Notes under the pieces: model-generated
What the model was told of the DNA's origin: nothing
What the model saw: only the letters and a program-made list of their open reading frames with translations
Databases searched by the model: none
DNA from: Devosia nitrariae
GTDB lineage: Bacteria > Pseudomonadota > Alphaproteobacteria > Rhizobiales > Devosiaceae
Assembly (NCBI RefSeq): GCF_030160115.1
Contig: NZ_BSNS01000002.1
Coordinates: 186,001 to 250,000 of the forward strand
DNA: 64,000 nt
Reading direction: 5' to 3'
In this document: one piece after another, positions 2,812-12,269 of the stretch
Layout: each line of letters begins with the position of its first letter
Position numbering within the stretch: position 1 is the stretch's first letter
Position numbers and translations under genes: made by a program

Positions 2812-4230
2812 TCAGCCGATCCGGTATGCGTCCTTGGCGGCCTGGTAGGACAGGTGCCGGGCGATGTCGGCAGCACCCGACTTGCTCAGCCGGTGCTCGG
2901 CGACCCAATGGGCGAGAAACCCGCAGACTTCGCGCCGCCAGACATCATGGCGGGCGGGGATCGAGAGGAGCGCCCTTGTGTCGTCGTTGAAGCCGGCGAG
3001 GTTGTAGAAGCCAGCGGTCTCGACCACCTGGTCGAGATAACGGCGAATGCCCTGCGGGCTGTCGTGGAACCACCAGGGCGGGCCGATCATCAGTGAAGAC
3101 CAGTAGCCGGCCATGGGCGCGAGCTCGCGCGCATAGGTGGTCTCGTCGAGGACGAACATGATGAGGCGAAGGTTGGGTTCGTTGCCGCAGCGCGACAGGA
3201 GCGCGGAAAGCCCGCCGACATAGTCGGTCGGGCCGGGAATGTCGGCACCCTTGTCGGGTCCACGCTCGGCAAAGAGCAGCGGATCGGTGTTGCGGCGTGA
3301 CCCGGCATGGATCTGCATGACCATGCCGTCCTCGACCGAAAGGAGCGCCATCTCGGTCAGCATCTGAGCGCGGAAGAGCTCGGCATCGGCTGCGTCATGC
3401 CGGCCCGCAAGAACCTTGTCGAGCAGCGCCTGCTTTTCCGGCGCGGAAAGGTCGGCAGTCATCGCCGTCGGCACGCCGTGGTCGGTAGCGACCGCGCCGA
3501 ACCGGCGGAAGTACTCGCGGCGGCGGCGGTGGGCATTGATCAGCCCGTCCCAACTTGTGGTGTCCTCGCCCGTCAGCTCACCGAACTTTTGCAGGTTCTC
3601 GGCGATGGCCGGGCGGCTGGGATCGGTCACGTCGTCCGGCCGGTAGGTGGTGCGCACCCTCCCGATCAGTCCCTGCCCTGCCATCGCCTGGTGATGCGGC
3701 AGGTCGTCGAGGGCAAATTCGGTGGTCGCAATCACTTCCACCTGCGCCTTGTCGAGCATGGCGCGAGGCAGGAGATCCGGATCGGCGAGGCGCGCGTCGA
3801 TGACGTCGTAGATCTCTTCGGCCGTCTCCGCCGACAATTCCTTGTCGATACCGAAGGCCCAAAGGAACGAATGATCGATCCAGGTCTTGGAGGGCGTGCC
3901 CGCAAAGAGGTGGTAATTGGCGGCGAACAGCCGCCAGGCGCTGCGTCCGTCGGCCACCGGTCCGCCGTCGCGGCGCGGGACGCCCAGGGCGTCGTAGTCG
4001 ATGCCGCGGCTGCGCAACATGCGCAGCACGTAGTGATCCGGGGTGAGGAACAGCGCCGCCGGATCGGAAAAGCGCTCGTTGCGCGAAAACCAGGCCGGGT
4101 CCGTGTGCCCATGCGGGCAGATGAGCGGCAGGTCACGCACGACCTGGTAAAGCTCGCGCGCAATAGCGCGGGCCGGCTCGGCAGCGGGAAAAAGGCGATC
4201 GGGGTGGAGATGGGGGGCTGAAGCGCTCAT
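2812..4230 (-). CDS. uxaC: Glucuronate isomerase
   Basis: UxaC isomerises D-glucuronate to D-fructuronate and D-galacturonate to D-tagaturonate, the first step of hexuronate catabolism. The 472-aa protein starting at MSASAPHLHPDRLF has the usual features: LICPHGHTDPAWF (metal-binding HGH) near the N-terminus, TFKTWIDH-like SKTWIDHSFLWAFG, and MVMQIHAGSRRNTD with GPDKGADIPGP further on. A longer start at 4275 exists, but family proteins begin near the chosen Met. The motif ATCTACCATACAAGA at 4267-4281 lies 37 bp upstream and recurs before the galactarate/talarate dehydratase-like gene at 30135. Confidence 0.95.
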   Translation of the reverse strand: MSASAPHLHPDRLFPAAEPARAIARELYQVVRDLPLICPHGHTDPAWFSRNERFSDPAALFLTPDHYVLRMLRSRGIDYDALGVPRRDGGPVADGRSAWRLFAANYHLFAGTPSKTWIDHSFLWAFGIDKELSAETAEEIYDVIDARLADPDLLPRAMLDKAQVEVIATTEFALDDLPHHQAMAGQGLIGRVRTTYRPDDVTDPSRPAIAENLQKFGELTGEDTTSWDGLINAHRRRREYFRRFGAVATDHGVPTAMTADLSAPEKQALLDKVLAGRHDAADAELFRAQMLTEMALLSVEDGMVMQIHAGSRRNTDPLLFAERGPDKGADIPGPTDYVGGLSALLSRCGNEPNLRLIMFVLDETTYARELAPMAGYWSSLMIGPPWWFHDSPQGIRRYLDQVVETAGFYNLAGFNDDTRALLSIPARHDVWRREVCGFLAHWVAEHRLSKSGAADIARHLSYQAAKDAYRIG

Positions 4231-4266
4231 GGCGTCGTTGTGGCATGTTCGCCGCCCCGGAGCAAT

Positions 4267-4281
4267 ATCTACCATACAAGA
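4267..4281. promoter_or_regulatory. Putative uronate-regulon operator, site 1
   Basis: The 15-bp string ATCTACCATACAAGA lies 37 bp upstream of the uxaC start. The identical string lies at 30076-30090, 44 bp upstream of an acid-sugar dehydratase gene. Identical sequence, similar distance and related pathways suggest a shared operator, perhaps of a GntR-type regulator. This is inference; no regulator has been matched to it. Confidence 0.6.
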
Positions 4282-5246: not shown

Positions 5247-5422
5247 TCAAGGCTCCTTGCTACAGTTCAATTCAAGGCGATATCGAGCGAAATTGCAAAG
5301 GGAACCAGTATGTTCCCGGCCGCGATGATGCACGCAATCGGCAACTGACACGGGCGCGCCGAGCGCCTATCCTTTTGCGCGAACACGCCCGGACCAACGG
5401 GTGGAGGAGAAACAGTCGGTTC

Positions 5423-6097
5423 ATGCGCATTCTGCTGGTCGAGGACCATGAGGATCTGGGTGAGGCCATAGACAGGCGGCTGCGCGGTGCGGGCCACTCG
5501 GTCGAGTGGGTTCGTGACGGGGCCGAAGTGATCGCAACGGCTCAGGCAGAGCCGTTCGATGCGGTAGCGCTCGACCTGACGCTGCCCAACCGCGACGGCA
5601 TCGCGCTACTTGCCGAGCTGCGCCGGGAGAAGTTTGCCGCGCCGATCCTCGTCATCACTGCCCGATCGGAGATCGACGACCGCGTCAGCCTCTTGGATCT
5701 GGGCGCGGACGACTATCTCGTCAAGCCTTTCGACCTGCGGGAGCTCGAGGCGCGCCTGCGCGCCCTCATCCGCCGCACCGGCGGACAGACCTCGAGCACC
5801 ATCTCGGCGGGCAATCTCGAGATGGATATGGCTGGACTCAGCGTCACGGTCGACGGGCGGCACCTGGAACTCGGCCGGCGCGAGTTCCGGCTCCTAGAGA
5901 TCTTCGTCACCCACCTCAACAAGGTGGTGCCCAAGGAGCGGCTGATGAATCAGCTGTTTAATTTCGACGAGGCGGTCTCGATCAACGCGCTCGAGCTACA
6001 TGTGTCGCGGCTGCGCCGCAAACTCGAGGGTGCCGACATCGAGATCGGGACGGTGCGTGGTGTCGGCTACATCGCCAGGGCCCCCAATGGCAGCTAG
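5423..6097 (+). CDS. OmpR/TctD-type response regulator
   Basis: This 224-aa protein has a receiver domain with acidic pair ED (8-9), phosphoacceptor D51 in AVALDLTLPN and KPF near residue 101. A winged-helix DNA-binding domain follows, with LGRREFRLLEIF and ALELHVSRLRRKLEGADIEIGTVRGVGYIA. Start at ATG 5423 is preceded by GGAGGAGA. It overlaps the histidine kinase gene by 11 bp, so the two are co-translated. The family resembles TctD, which controls tricarboxylate uptake; the tctCBA operon a few kb downstream fits that role by inference. Confidence 0.9.
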   Translation: MRILLVEDHEDLGEAIDRRLRGAGHSVEWVRDGAEVIATAQAEPFDAVALDLTLPNRDGIALLAELRREKFAAPILVITARSEIDDRVSLLDLGADDYLVKPFDLRELEARLRALIRRTGGQTSSTISAGNLEMDMAGLSVTVDGRHLELGRREFRLLEIFVTHLNKVVPKERLMNQLFNFDEAVSINALELHVSRLRRKLEGADIEIGTVRGVGYIARAPNGS

Positions 6098-8573
6098 GAC
6101 CCACCCCAAGACCTTCTCGATCCGTCGGCGCATCCTGGCGCTGGCCCTCGCTCTCCTGGTCGGGGCGGCGGCGGTGCTGATCGCCTTCATCCACGACTAT
6201 GCACAGCGATCGGCCGATCGGGCATTCGACAGGCTGCTCGCCGCGTCGGCGCTGACGATCGCGGGCGCCGTACAGATCGAGGAGGGCGGCATCATCGTCG
6301 AACTGCCGGTTGCTTCCTTTGCCATGTTCTCGGGGCGCGACCGGGTCTTCCATGCTGTCGAGGATTCCTCGGGGCGGGTGGTGACGGGTTACGACGATCT
6401 CGCAGCCGCGCTCGAAAACGTCCAGGGGACCGAACCCCAGTTCGCCGACATCATGTACCGCGGAGAGCTGATGCGGGTGGCGAGCGTGGCGCGGCTGACC
6501 TCGGCGGCCAACGCCGCCGACTGGGTCACCATCCACGTCGCCGAGACGCAGAGCGAGCGCGAGGCGCTGTCGGCGGAAATCCTCGGCAACGCCATCGTGC
6601 CGGTCATTGCGCTGACGCTGCTTGCCGTCGGCCTCGTCTGGTTCGGCATCGGACGCATGTTCGCGCCGCTGACGCAACTCGAAGAGGAGCTTCGCGCCCG
6701 CGCGCCCGAGGATCTCTCGCCGATAGCCGTGCCGGTACCGAGCGAGGTCAGTCACCTGGTTTCGGCTCTGAATGCCTTCATGGCGCGGCTCGGCAACACC
6801 ATGGACCGGCTCTCGGGCCTGGTCGCGGAAGCCGCGCACGAAGTGAGGACCCCGCTCGCATCGCTGCGCGCCCAGGCGGAAATCGCCATGGACGAAACCG
6901 ATCACCAGGCGCTGCACCGGCGTGTCGCGCGCATTCACCAGGGCGCCGTGCATGCGAGCCAGTTGGTCTCGCAGCTTTTGATGGACGCCACGGTCTCCCA
7001 TCGCCTGGAAAGCAAGGAGACAGATCCGCTGCCCTTGAGCGCAGTGATCGAGGACGTGCGGCAACGGCTCGACCCGGACGCGGCGGGGCGGCTCGTCCTC
7101 GAGGTGCCTGCAGAGGCCGGGGCGGCAGCGCTACGCGTCGATCGGGTGGCGCTGCGCGAGATGCTGCGCAATCTCGTCGACAACGCGCTCGTCTATTCGA
7201 CGGGACCCGTCGAGATCAGGGCGGCGCTCTCGGGAGAGGCGCTGCGGGTAGCGGTCTCTGATCGAGGGCCGGGCATTGCCGAAAGCGAGAAGCCGCTGGT
7301 CGTGAGGCGGTTCACGCGCGGCGCGGCCGGCGCCGGCAAGAGCGGCTCGGGACTGGGACTCTCCATCGTCAGCCGGGTCGTGGAGGCGCATCGCGGCACG
7401 CTTGCCCTCATTGATCGGGACGGCGGAGGATTGACCGTCGAGGTGGCGTTGCCGGTTGCGGTTCGGCGCAAAACGAGAAAAGCCAGGCGCAGCGCGGCGG
7501 CCGTCGGGGTTTTGGCCTGCGCCGTTCTCGCCCTCAATCCTGGGCCTTCGCCGCAAGCGGCGACCTCGACCTATCCCGCCCCGCGTCCGCCCGAAACCAC
7601 GGCGTCACCGATACTCACCATCGTCGGCACTACCGATACGCCGCTCTTTGCCCGGTTCATCGCCGCCTTCCAGTCGCTGCGTCCGGACGTGACCGTCGTC
7701 TACGAAGAGACCGATACCCTGCCGATGTACGAGCGGTTCATTGACGGCACGCTCGCGCCAAAGCCGGATCTTCTTGTCTCCTCGGCGGCGGATCTGCAGT
7801 TGAAGCTCGCCAATGACGGCCATGCGCTCGCCTATGACAGTCCATTCCTCGACGAACTGCCCGCCTGGGCACGATGGCGCAACGAAGTGTTCGGCTTCAC
7901 CTTTGAACCAGCCGTCATCATCTACAATCGCGACCTCGTTGCCGAGGCCGAGGTGCCACGCACGCATCTGCGGCTAGCCGAACTCCTCGAAACCCAGACG
8001 GAGCGGTTTTCCGGCAAGGTAGCGACCTACGACATCTCGGTCAGCGGTGTCGGCTATCTTCTGGCCGCGCAGGACCAGTTGATCTCCTCCAATTTCTGGC
8101 GGTTGGCCAATGCGTTCGGGCGCGTTTCGGCGCAATTGTCCGGATCAAGCCCGGCGATCCTCGACGGAGTCGCCGAAGGGCGCCTGGCGCTCGGCTACAA
8201 TGTGCTGGGGTCCTATGCCTTCGCCCGGCAGGCGGAGGGTGCCGATATCGGCATCGTGGTGCCCGACGACTACGTGCTGGTCCTCACCCGCGCCATGGTC
8301 ATCCCACGCAACGCTCCCAATGCCGAACTCGGCAAGGCTTTCCTCGATTTTGCCCTCTCACCCGCCGGCCAGGCCGTGGCGGCCGAGGAGACGGCGCTGG
8401 GCGCCGTGATGGCGGGCACGCAAGGTCCCTGGAGCAGCGAGGCGATCGCTGCGCGCGGACGCGGCGTCATTCAACCCATTCCGCTGGGGCCTGCCCTCCT
8501 CGTCTCGCTCGACCGGCAGCGGCGCACGCGCTTTCTGGAAACCTGGCTCGAGATCGCCTCGCCCAAGCCCTAA
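6087..8573 (+). CDS. Sensor histidine kinase fused to a periplasmic solute-binding domain
   Basis: The 828-aa protein begins at ATG 6087 inside the end of the regulator gene. Residues ~1-185 are a TctE-like sensor region with two membrane spans. A HAMP linker follows, then a HisKA domain with H251 in EAAHEVRTPLA, and an ATPase domain with RNLVDNALVYS (~360), a DRGPGI box and SGSGLGLSIVS (~421). After the kinase comes a third membrane span (~471-486, VGVLACAVLALNPG). Residues ~509-828 resemble an Fe3+/sugar-type ABC solute-binding protein (TPLFARFIAAFQSLRPDVTV, FGFTFEPAVIIYNRDL, GKAFLDFALSPAGQ). With three spans the binding domain would face the periplasm, able to sense ligand directly. The frame has no interruption. 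TctE-like kinases usually end after the ATPase domain, so this architecture is unusual. Confidence 0.9.
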   Translation: MAARTHPKTFSIRRRILALALALLVGAAAVLIAFIHDYAQRSADRAFDRLLAASALTIAGAVQIEEGGIIVELPVASFAMFSGRDRVFHAVEDSSGRVVTGYDDLAAALENVQGTEPQFADIMYRGELMRVASVARLTSAANAADWVTIHVAETQSEREALSAEILGNAIVPVIALTLLAVGLVWFGIGRMFAPLTQLEEELRARAPEDLSPIAVPVPSEVSHLVSALNAFMARLGNTMDRLSGLVAEAAHEVRTPLASLRAQAEIAMDETDHQALHRRVARIHQGAVHASQLVSQLLMDATVSHRLESKETDPLPLSAVIEDVRQRLDPDAAGRLVLEVPAEAGAAALRVDRVALREMLRNLVDNALVYSTGPVEIRAALSGEALRVAVSDRGPGIAESEKPLVVRRFTRGAAGAGKSGSGLGLSIVSRVVEAHRGTLALIDRDGGGLTVEVALPVAVRRKTRKARRSAAAVGVLACAVLALNPGPSPQAATSTYPAPRPPETTASPILTIVGTTDTPLFARFIAAFQSLRPDVTVVYEETDTLPMYERFIDGTLAPKPDLLVSSAADLQLKLANDGHALAYDSPFLDELPAWARWRNEVFGFTFEPAVIIYNRDLVAEAEVPRTHLRLAELLETQTERFSGKVATYDISVSGVGYLLAAQDQLISSNFWRLANAFGRVSAQLSGSSPAILDGVAEGRLALGYNVLGSYAFARQAEGADIGIVVPDDYVLVLTRAMVIPRNAPNAELGKAFLDFALSPAGQAVAAEETALGAVMAGTQGPWSSEAIAARGRGVIQPIPLGPALLVSLDRQRRTRFLETWLEIASPKP

Positions 8574-9092: not shown

Positions 9093-10637
9093 TCAATCCT
9101 CGTCGGTTGCCAACTGGCCCAGCAATTGCCCCCTGCCCCGCAAGCGCAGGAATAGCGGCAGCAACAGCGCGATGGCGGCGACCGTGTAAAGCACCATGGC
9201 GACGGGCGAAGCAAACAGGATCGCCGGATCGCCCTGGCTGATGGCGAGGGCCCGCCGCAATTGCTGCTCGGCCATGGGTCCGAGGATGAGGCCCACAACC
9301 ACCGGCGCGATCGGGTAACCGAAGCGGCGCAGCAGATAGCCGAGCACGCCGAAGGCGAGAAGCAGGAGCAACTCGAAGGAGAAAGCGAGCCCGCCGATGC
9401 GCATGACGGCCGCGTTCGCCCCGATGGTGCCGAGAGTGGCAAAGCTCAATATCCCCGCGTAGAGCCAAGGCTTGGGGATGGTCAGGAGCCGCACCCACAC
9501 ACCGATCAGCGGCAGGTTGAGGACCAACAGCATCAGGTTGGCGACCAGGAGGCTCGCGATCAGCGCCCAGACCAGCGAGGCATTGTTGACGAAGAGCAGC
9601 GGACCCGGCTGAAGGCCGAACTGCTGGAAACCGGCGAGCATGATCGCTGCCGTTGCTGTCGTCGGCAGGCCGAGCGTCAGGAGCGGCACCAAGGTACCGG
9701 CGGCGGAGGCGTTATTGGCGGCCTCGGGCCCGGCGACTCCCTCGATGGCGCCCGTACCGAACTCTTCCGGGTGCTTGGAAAAGCTCTTTTCGGCGCTATA
9801 GGAAAGGAAACTCGCAACGTCGGCGCCACCCGCCGGCATGGCCCCGATCGGAAAGCCGATAAAGGTGCCGCGCAGCCACGACGCCCACGAGCGCTTCCAG
9901 TCCTCGATGGTCATCCAGACCGAGCCTTTGACCGCCTCGACCTGCTCCTGCAGGTGCGTCGGCGCACAGGCGATCTTCAACGTCTCGCCGATGGCAAAGA
10001 GGGCAACGGCCAGCGTCGTGACTTCAATGCCGTCGAAGAGATCGGGAATACCGAACGCCAACCGCGTCTGGCCAGTCTGCAGGTCGATGCCGATGAGGCC
10101 GAGCGCAAGGCCGATGAAGAGCGCAGTGAGGCCCCGCAGCGCCGAATCCCCGAAGGCGGCCGAAACGGTGATGAAAGCCAGGACCATCAGCGCAAAATAA
10201 TCCGCCGGGCCGAAGGAGAGGGCGAAGCGCACGACCCATGGGGCGATGAAGGCAAGAAGCAGCGTTGCGATCAGCCCGGCGACGAACGAGCCTATGGCAG
10301 CCGTCGCCAGTGCCGGTCCGCCGCGGCCGGCGCGCGCCATCCGGTTACCCTCGAGGGCGGTGACGATCGAGGCGCTTTCGCCAGGCGTGTTGAGGAGGAT
10401 CGAAGTCGTCGAGCCGCCATACATGCCGCCATAGTAGATGCCGGCGAACATGATGAGCGATCCGGCGGGATCGAGCCGGTAGGTGACAGGCAACAGGAGC
10501 GCGACGGTCAGCGCCGGCCCGATGCCCGGCAGCACCCCGACCGCCGTGCCGAGGGTCACGCCGATGAGAGCATAGACAAGGTTCATCGGCTCCATGGCGG
10601 CCAGCAGCCCCTGGAGGAGGAGGTCGAAAGTTCCCAT
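9093..10637 (-). CDS. tctA: Tripartite tricarboxylate transporter, large permease TctA
   Basis: This 514-aa, ~12-span membrane protein carries the TctA signatures [49 protein letters not shown] and [21 protein letters not shown]. It is the main transport subunit of the TTT family, which takes up carboxylates such as citrate with help from a periplasmic TctC. The ATG at 10637 overlaps the tctB stop (TGATG); a GTG one codon earlier is less likely. It is the third gene of the tctCBA operon. Confidence 0.95.
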
Positions 10638-11161
10638 CACGCGGCCCCCACGGATGCAGCGAGGGCACCGAAAGCCGAGACCAAAGCCGATTCAAGGGGG
10701 CCTGTGGGCAGCGAGAGCTGCAGTCCGCGCGCAAAGATCAGCCAGATGACGAAGGCGAAGGCGATGCCGGCCGGCAGCGTCATCCAGAAACGGCGCCTGC
10801 CGAAGCCGGCGGCGGTCAGAGCGAAGAGCACCCCCGTCGCGATCGAGAACCCGGCGGGAAAGAGCAGGAGCATCTGCGCCAGGAGCCCGCCGAGAATCCA
10901 GAACATCGGCCCGTAGTTGTCCTTGTCGCGCGCCGGAAAGCTGCCGCGCAGGGCCGAAACGACGGTCGCAACGGCGAGCACCGCAAGACCGGTGGCCACG
11001 ATATAGGGGAAGGTCGTCGGGCCGACGCGCGCATAGACGGCGACCACGCGCATCTGGGATGTCTGCCAGAAGATGACCGCTGCGAGAATGGCGAGGACGA
11101 CGGCAATGACGAGCGCCGCCCCGTCGGGGCGGCGCGTGGCGTTCGTGCCGCCGTCGGTCAT
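10637..11161 (-). CDS. tctB: Tripartite tricarboxylate transporter, small permease TctB
   Basis: This 174-aa protein has four predicted spans ([78 protein letters not shown]), the usual TctB layout. It overlaps tctC by 4 bp (ATGA) and touches tctA. TctB sequences are poorly conserved, so the assignment rests on size, topology and its place between tctC and tctA. Confidence 0.9.
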
Positions 11162-12102
11162 TGCACCAGACCGATCTGGCGCAGGATGCCTTCGGTGGCG
11201 GTGATGTCCTTGGCGAGCTGCGCCTTGAAGTCTTCACCGGCAAGGTAGGTGTTCACCCAGCCGCGGCTGGCCAGGGCTTCCTGCCAGGCGTCCGACTCGA
11301 CCATGGCGGCGATATCGGCGTTGATCTCGGCCTCCTGCTCGGGCGTTATGCCCGGGGCGGCCGCGACCATGCGCCAGTTCTCCAGCACCACGTCGACGCC
11401 GGCTTCCGAAAGCGTCGGCGCGTCGACGCCCTCGAGCCGGCTCTCGCCGGAAAGGGCAAGGAGGCGCAACTCGCCGGCCTCGATCTGCGAGGCGAACTCA
11501 CCATAGCCCGAAACACCGACGGTCACCTGACCGCCGAGGATCGCGGCGAGCGCCTCGCCGCCACCCGAATAGGCGATATAGTTGATCTGCGTCGGATCGA
11601 CGTCGACGGCAGTCGCGACAAGGCCGGCCAGGATATGGTCGGTGCCACCCGCCGAGCCGCCGGCCCAGGAAACGGAGCCCGGATTTTCCTTGAGCTGAGC
11701 GACGAGATCGTCGAGCGTCTGGATGGGCGAGTTGGCCGGGACGACGAGCGCCTCGGATTCGCCGGTCAAACGGGCGATCGGCGTGACATTATCGAGCGTC
11801 ACGGGGGACTGGTTGGTCAGGATCGCGCCGACCATCACATAGCCGCCGACGATCAGCTGGCTCGGATCGCCCTGGGCCTGGTTGGCGAACTGGGCGAGAC
11901 CGATGGTGCCGCCGGCGCCGGGCACATTCGTCACCTGCACATTGGCGGCGATGCCTTCGTCCTGCATCACCTGTTGCATGGTGCGCGCCGTCTGGTCCCA
12001 GCCACCACCAGGGGCGGCAGGCGCCATGATGGTATAATCCTGGGCGAACGCAGTTTGAGCCAGGGCGCCGGTCACCAGCGCCGCGAGAAGCAGCTTGTTC
12101 AA
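11158..12102 (-). CDS. tctC: Tripartite tricarboxylate transporter solute-binding protein TctC
   Basis: The 314-aa protein has a Sec signal peptide ([20 protein letters not shown], cleavage before QDYTIM) and the TctC/Bug family core: [36 protein letters not shown] and [16 protein letters not shown]. The start is TTG at 12102, supported by GGGAGG five bases upstream. It delivers a carboxylate ligand to TctAB. The ligand cannot be read from the sequence. The adjacent two-component genes, on the other strand, are likely regulators. Confidence 0.93.
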
Positions 12103-12269
12103 TAGATCCTCCCTTTGAACATCGCCGGGCGTCGTTGCGCCCGTGAAGGATAATGCTAGGGCGCTTGTCTGTCAGCGTCCTGTCAACAGCCCGATTTTGT
12201 GAACGCGCGGCCAGGAACTCGCGCATACACGCCATCGTTGATTTCCTACCTAACCATGAGGAGACGGAC

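Follow-up and report, generated by a model that had tools for sequence, protein, structure and literature searches.

Among the closest known relatives of the system treated here is BctDE of Bordetella: according to PMC5812351, its signalling requires citrate-loaded BctC, which binds the kinase BctE in two-hybrid tests. For a kinase carrying the binding protein in its own chain, the open PMC subset yielded no description beyond one table row in PMC4618731, which lists, for three Azospirillum strains, one classic kinase each with SBP_bac_1. The gene analyzed here encodes such a chain. It lies at 6087..8573 on the forward strand of a 64,000-nucleotide stretch of Devosia nitrariae (assembly GCF_030160115.1, contig NZ_BSNS01000002.1, positions 186,001 to 250,000), hereafter the window, and specifies 828 amino acids, a histidine kinase followed in the same frame by a solute-binding protein (SBP). 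From the sequences compared, it is fairly probable that, across the family, the kinase and its SBP are synthesized as one polyprotein, usually cut at an internal signal peptide.

Architecture and integrity of the 828-residue frame

The chain is assigned from its open frame, Pfam matches, and orthologues. On the longer frame 6000-8573, Pfam places 2CSK_N, HisKA, and HATPase_c in this order, followed by SBP_bac_1/8/11/6 (best E 2.4e-15); a HAMP match is found in the kinase only below the Pfam cut-off. From the N-terminus, the kinase comprises a first transmembrane segment (TM1, residues 16-36, 6132..6194), evident from hydropathy and a helix in the AlphaFold2 model, a 2CSK_N periplasmic sensor region (residues 27-165, 6165..6581, PF08521 E 1.9e-31), and a second segment supported by hydropathy and the model (TM2, residues 168-188, 6588..6650). 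The HisKA domain (residues 243-301, 6813..6989, PF00512 E 1.3e-8) harbors the phospho-acceptor H251 within EAAHEVRTPLA, and HATPase_c (residues 352-457, 7140..7457, PF02518 E 6.5e-22) contains all the N, G1, and G2 boxes (N362/N366, D392-G396, G420-G424). With a sensor region ahead of HisKA and HATPase_c that scores 109.5 bits against a cut-off of 23.2, the protein is a 2CSK_N (TctE-type) kinase, as the preliminary description of this stretch had proposed from H251 and the ATPase motifs. The SBP (residues 492-828, 7560..8570) is defined by Pfam, the model, and a PDB match, its nearest solved chain being 3c9h. It is complete, as that description had it, but the confident region starts near residue 491 in the model and not near 509.

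Two-domain products of this type are commonly artefactual in general, and the frame is indeed broken in genome G010 (locus L081) and in L146, both otherwise complete. In both, tctA alongside is broken too, and the breaks look like sequencing indels since the neighboring tct genes share them. A missed stop, a frameshift, or a chimeric assembly was rejected, and its probability is negligible: the single frame recurs in 27 of 37 Devosia genomes (source genome included; match threshold E 1e-60) and in 78 of 80 named loci, the best 80 of 533 confirmed stretches in a scan of named genomes. In these independent records no stop or frameshift separates kinase from SBP. The nearest named orthologue, from Devosia geojensis, is 84% identical over the chain, with dN/dS of 0.092/0.657 for the kinase and 0.082/0.678 for the SBP; by this measure, purifying selection acts on both halves. 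The kinase–SBP fusion is real, and the unbroken frame first reported is confirmed.

The joint between kinase and SBP

Between the two halves lies a signal-peptide-like segment (7455..7559) made of a basic n-region (457-468), a hydrophobic stretch (469-484), and a c-region running to A491, the -1 position of a predicted signal-peptidase-I site, P489-Q490-A491 (7551..7559), located from the alignment of close orthologues. The hydrophobic segment had initially been taken as a third membrane span at about 471-486. It does exist, at about 469-484, but its conservation is that of a signal peptide and not of a span. With a 19-residue window, hydropathy peaks at 17-35 and 170-188, while a third peak at 470-488 is weak (1.53, under a peak inside the folded SBP) and stands out, at 469-483, only when the window is shortened to 15 residues. 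The net charge is +7 ahead of this segment, and no Lys or Arg occurs in the next 15 residues. Because of this positive-inside pattern the SBP is predicted to lie outside the membrane, and the charges support the topology deduced earlier from the odd number of spans.

The linkers of fused chains share a basic start, a short hydrophobic core, and a small-x-Ala end. After removal of repeat sequences, 97 distinct fused linkers and 45 close orthologues remained; L128 (cut by a contig end), L129 (a long odd linker), and the frame-broken L081 and L146 were left out. A strict site was defined as [AVST]xA located 2-13 residues past the hydrophobic core, a loose site admitting also Gly, Leu, or Ile at -3. 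The strict site occurs in 85 of the 97 linkers, against 50.9 +/- 4.5 in shuffles (largest 67, 500 shuffles), and in 35 at TM1 and 13 at TM2. Among 46 fused rows below 80% identity, 38 have the strict site (shuffle mean 27.4, largest 36 of 1000) and 44 the loose one (shuffle mean 35.1, largest 42), the n-, h-, and c-regions of a signal peptide accompanying the -3/-1 motif in the family. Position 491 is Ala in all 45 close orthologues, encoded by GCG (22), GCC (12), GCA (8), or GCT (3), and is the sole invariant residue across 457-497. Its -2 neighbor takes eleven different residues; at -3 are found Ala (32), Val (5), Thr (4), Gly (2), and Pro (2).

The preliminary description pointed to a scheme in which the third segment is a true membrane span, the chain stays intact, and the permanently attached SBP signals from the kinase C-terminus. 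The open frame, the odd number of spans, and the positive-inside charge all accord with this, and in the AlphaFold2 model the folded SBP begins about 8 residues past the segment, a distance that a stiff tether could have. Mean identity among the 45 close orthologues is, however, 0.29 in the hydrophobic segment, compared to 0.75 in TM1, 0.84 in TM2, and 0.79 in the SBP. A segment that drifts while its -1 Ala is fixed, unlike TM1 and TM2, follows the pattern of a cleavable signal peptide. Furthermore, the cleavage motif recurs in fused groups that arose separately, and related modules, one of them in the same genus, operate as separate genes. For the family, a permanent tether is therefore rather unlikely given the conserved signal-peptidase-I site, and the binding domain of most relatives probably becomes free instead of acting via the kinase C-terminus. 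The AlphaFold2 model, built on 46 sequences (mean pLDDT 86.7), shows TM1 and TM2 as confident helices, falls below 50 at 461-487, and rises above 90 at 491-500, with a strand at 493-496; in the model, the folded start of the SBP coincides with the predicted new N-terminus after A491.

The window's own copy departs from the motif. Its linker ends in NPGPSPQA followed by ATSTYP, where that of D. geojensis reads PDAQA followed by ITSTYP, and the resulting Pro at -3 fails the -3/-1 pattern. Signal peptidase I is not expected to accept Pro at this position, and this copy may stay tethered for that reason. Cleavage may be slow, shifted (e.g., to V480-L481-A482), or lost, leaving the SBP attached, and the tethered sensing proposed at first may be true of this gene though false for most of the family. 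A two-component receptor made as a polyprotein that arose repeatedly, and of which some copies, the window's included, lost the cut and are now tethered, is plausible, at somewhat less than even odds.

Separate production of the SBP from translation starts just ahead of the signal peptide is very improbable. An ATG with a Shine-Dalgarno-like stretch occurs in 10 of the 97 linkers, and the window has a TTG after GAGGTG; the position of the start codon is nonetheless not conserved, and another 10/97 count is that of linkers devoid of any ATG, GTG, or TTG in the 25 codons tested. With no conserved start among the linkers, internal starts were rejected as a general source of SBP. A lipoprotein anchor was likewise discarded for the fused proteins, no clear lipobox being seen in the linkers inspected by eye; the signal peptides of two unfused SBPs (L070 and L071) end in LAGC and LAAC.

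Distribution, gene neighborhood, and history

Beyond the 27 Devosia genomes with the full chain in one frame and the frame-shifted G010, the genus sample contains one genome with two genes (G003), three with a distant SBP match only, and five without any match at E 1e-60. A profile of the SBP plus the kinase tail matched 119 of 397 genomes of the order; in 24 of these, 15 within the genus and 9 outside it, the match continues from the kinase tail into the SBP in a single frame. In G257 and G181, the match spans a single in-frame TGA between the two genes. The 78 fused named loci belong to Alphaproteobacteria (67), Betaproteobacteria (9), Gammaproteobacteria (1), and a record titled Mycobacterium (1). 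The latter, Mycobacterium sp. KBS0706 (L114), has a kinase–SBP chain that groups with Hyphomicrobiales, and the record is probably misnamed or contaminated. Among the fused loci, L111 and L146 have frame breaks elsewhere and L128 is truncated by a contig end. Across the phylum, 397 genomes were drawn and searched at E 1e-120, a strict cut-off that would miss distant fused relatives; the full match was confined to the source genome, with kinase-only matches in 4 others. As this was the sole full match, the arrangement is not general.

The kinase gene is preceded by that of a TctD/OmpR-type response regulator (Response_reg and Trans_reg_C, 5423..6097, forward strand, Pfam E 5.1e-27 and 1.8e-19), whose last 11 bases overlap the kinase start. 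Its best NCBIfam match is TctD, with 191 bits against a cut-off of 337, i.e., TctD-like but below equivalog level. The tctCBA genes noted nearby are present on the reverse strand at 9093-12102: tctA (9093..10640, PF01970 E 1.4e-149), tctB (10637..11161, PF07331 E 2.7e-20), and tctC (11158..12102, PF03401 E 9.5e-29), the last encoding the transporter's own binding protein, of a family unlike that of the fused SBP. A regulator occurs at 77 of the 80 named loci, and 54 have one Tct protein or more. In a comparison set of 20 unfused loci, one per chosen genome, the SBP has the regulator and kinase next to it in 18, and TctA or TctC occurs close by in 16; these SBPs keep their own N-terminal signal peptide. 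The association with tctCBA suggested by the window therefore extends to other genomes and, the same gene company being kept in both sets, regulator, kinase, and SBP form a lasting trio, fused or not.

The SBP might instead serve a transporter, its link to the kinase being a matter of expression and having no sensing role. In 12 of the 80 named loci, the kinase–SBP gene has a second SBP gene of that class, a stand-alone one, behind it. At the three inspected (L120, L127, and L141), this is followed by a long permease-like frame and one for an ABC ATPase in place of tctCBA; given these frames, this SBP class does serve ABC importers, and one sensor seems to work for transporters of two types. 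Yet next to tctCBA the transporter has its own TctC, and next to the ABC importer the importer has its own SBP, whereas regulator, kinase, and SBP stay together in 18 of the 20 unfused loci. Mere convenience of expression is thus improbable. In G003, within the Devosia group, the genes are separate, in the order regulator-SBP-kinase with short overlaps, and the N-terminal signal peptide of the SBP ends in VMA followed by ASTYPAP; since this pair is split, the SBP can function without a covalent link to the kinase.

An unrooted tree of both domains (67 rows) requires at least five changes between the fused and unfused states, 5-6 over the bootstraps and never one; on an unrooted tree, these changes carry no polarity. 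L111 was also dropped from the tree rows, L179 and L181 were skipped for want of a kinase match, and L148 and L180 were omitted from the careful tree as long branches. In a fuller tree, fused groups stand apart in a Devosia-to-Alcaligenaceae clade, in Azospirillaceae, and in a Paracoccaceae/Ahrensia group. Kinase and SBP genes of L070 and L071 share a frame with one TGA between them, one stop codon short of fusion. A second, distant kinase–SBP chain occurs in L072 (G378) and L073 (G020), with an SBP profile score of ~100 bits and a linker ending in AKA or ARA; these chains are a separate subtype within Devosiaceae.

Ligand and candidate regulator box

The fused SBP had been described as an iron/sugar-type binding protein distinct from TctC. 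The distinction from TctC stands: no PF03401 match appears up to E 0.01, and the broad SBP_bac_1/6/8/11 families are matched instead. The iron/sugar type holds only in part: HitA/FbpA-type iron binders match at E 2e-10, but among solved chains the closest are 3c9h (E 6.6e-103) and those of the 7f6e/7f6n group (E ~1e-74), relatives over the whole SBP. FbpA-type ferric-binding proteins use paired Tyr residues as Fe ligands; no adjacent Tyr pair is found among the invariant columns of alignment A5. The 7f6e/7f6n group is presumably the Mg-citrate-binding protein of Mandal and Kanaujia 2021. These E values make a close tie to a citrate-type system more likely than one to iron. By analogy with neighbors and relatives, the likeliest ligand would be citrate or a related tricarboxylate, perhaps with a metal, and the best reading of regulator, kinase, and SBP is a module for a tricarboxylate (citrate-type) nutrient.

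Upstream of tctC lies a tandem 11-bp repeat, TGACAGGACGCTGACA / TGACAGGnnnnTGACA (12170..12185, reverse strand), which overlaps the tctC -35-like hexamer and is the likely box for the regulator. The tandem TGACA box with 11-bp spacing precedes tctC in 29 of 53 loci and the regulator in 5 of 77, counts from non-independent loci rich in Devosia. Its expectation in 64 kb is 0.01, and one is present in the window. A tighter pattern has three matches in the 5.5-Mb genome, one of them in the window, and none for a reversed control; the two others are L187 and L189. Promoter-like hexamers, CTGACA and TATCCT with a spacer of 17, precede tctC (12147..12175, reverse strand) and also the regulator (5345-5373, forward strand). 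The hexamer pair is weak on its own because two were found against 1.1 expected in shuffles, and direct alignment of the two promoter regions revealed little beyond them.

Two other frames were identified on the reverse strand of the window. One (1868-2908) matches PF04655, the family of APH(6) and hydroxyurea kinases, with E 6.7e-62, but does not reach the cut-off of any NCBIfam model for a named APH(6) enzyme; the other (2812-4275) is of the glucuronate isomerase UxaC family (PF02614).

Proposed mechanism and its weak points

In the proposed scheme, a kinase gene would have lost its stop codon ahead of an SBP gene, giving a single translated chain with the SBP signal peptide retained inside. 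This segment would re-insert with its N-terminus cytoplasmic and take the SBP to the other side of the membrane, where, in most relatives, a cut by signal peptidase I after the conserved A491 would yield a periplasmic SBP in 1:1 ratio with the kinase. The ligand-loaded SBP would dock on the kinase's own 2CSK_N domain, the likely dock by analogy with BctC on BctE; the kinase would phosphorylate the TctD-like regulator, which would bind the tandem TGACA box and switch on tctCBA.

Several points weigh against this scheme. The excess of sites over shuffles is clear, but shuffled linkers pass the strict site about half the time and the loose site exceeds them only modestly (44 against a maximum of 42), the background being high owing to the Ala content of these proteins; even at TM1, which is not cut, the strict site occurs in the 35 cases mentioned above. 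The two rows of 46 failing the loose site are the window copy and Salinarimonas L149 (Pro at -3). Poor alignment could explain the low pLDDT of the model at 461-487. As signal peptidase cuts on the outer side of the membrane, the signal peptide would remain on the kinase. In two short-linker proteins, L154 (5998-8358) and L160 (6001-8370), the hydrophobic core begins one residue past the end of the kinase profile, with hardly any basic n-region. Such a stub would keep the ATPase domain at the membrane; either it is trimmed further or the kinases function despite this restriction. Finally, the TGACA box is missing in 24 of the 53 loci with tctC. The geometry of L154 and L160 also raises the question of how the ATPase domain reaches its histidine.

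If cleavage does take place, databases listing single "histidine kinase with binding domain" proteins misdescribe these chains, and a simple way to keep receptor and co-sensor in 1:1 ratio has gone unnoticed. If it does not, these would be kinases with an outside sensor attached behind the ATPase domain, of which, to our knowledge, there is no other case among histidine kinases. In both cases, the presence of good and bad cut sites among close relatives allows a direct test of whether the SBP has to be free or tethered to drive the kinase; should some copies have lost the cut, they would form a natural cut/uncut pair.

Comparison with known systems

FbcH of Bradyrhizobium japonicum, the cytochrome b/c1 precursor, is a single chain with an internal signal peptide cut by signal peptidase. 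It resembles the kinase–SBP chain in joining two membrane-associated partners through such a peptide; its products are respiratory subunits and its cleavage is proven, whereas here signalling proteins are involved and cleavage is predicted. BvgS/EvgS-type kinases have Venus-flytrap domains covalently joined to the histidine kinase. There, the SBP-like domains precede the kinase, between membrane spans, while in the present chain the SBP comes after the ATPase domain.

HptA-HptSR of Staphylococcus and PgtC-PgtB-PgtA of Salmonella use an iron-SBP-like co-sensor for a kinase controlling a carrier of another type. A dedicated binding protein as kinase co-sensor beside a carrier of other type is common to them and to the present module; they differ by their separate genes and by their sugar-phosphate or phosphoglycerate ligands. 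The 3c9h and 7f6e/7f6n proteins, sequence relatives across the whole SBP, are stand-alone PDB chains.

BctDE/BctC of Bordetella pertussis is likewise a two-component system beside a tripartite tricarboxylate transporter, with a binding protein that is needed for signalling and that binds the kinase (PMC5812351). There, the co-sensor is the transporter's own TctC homologue, a separate protein, whereas in the present case the kinase frame itself encodes the binding protein, which is of another family.

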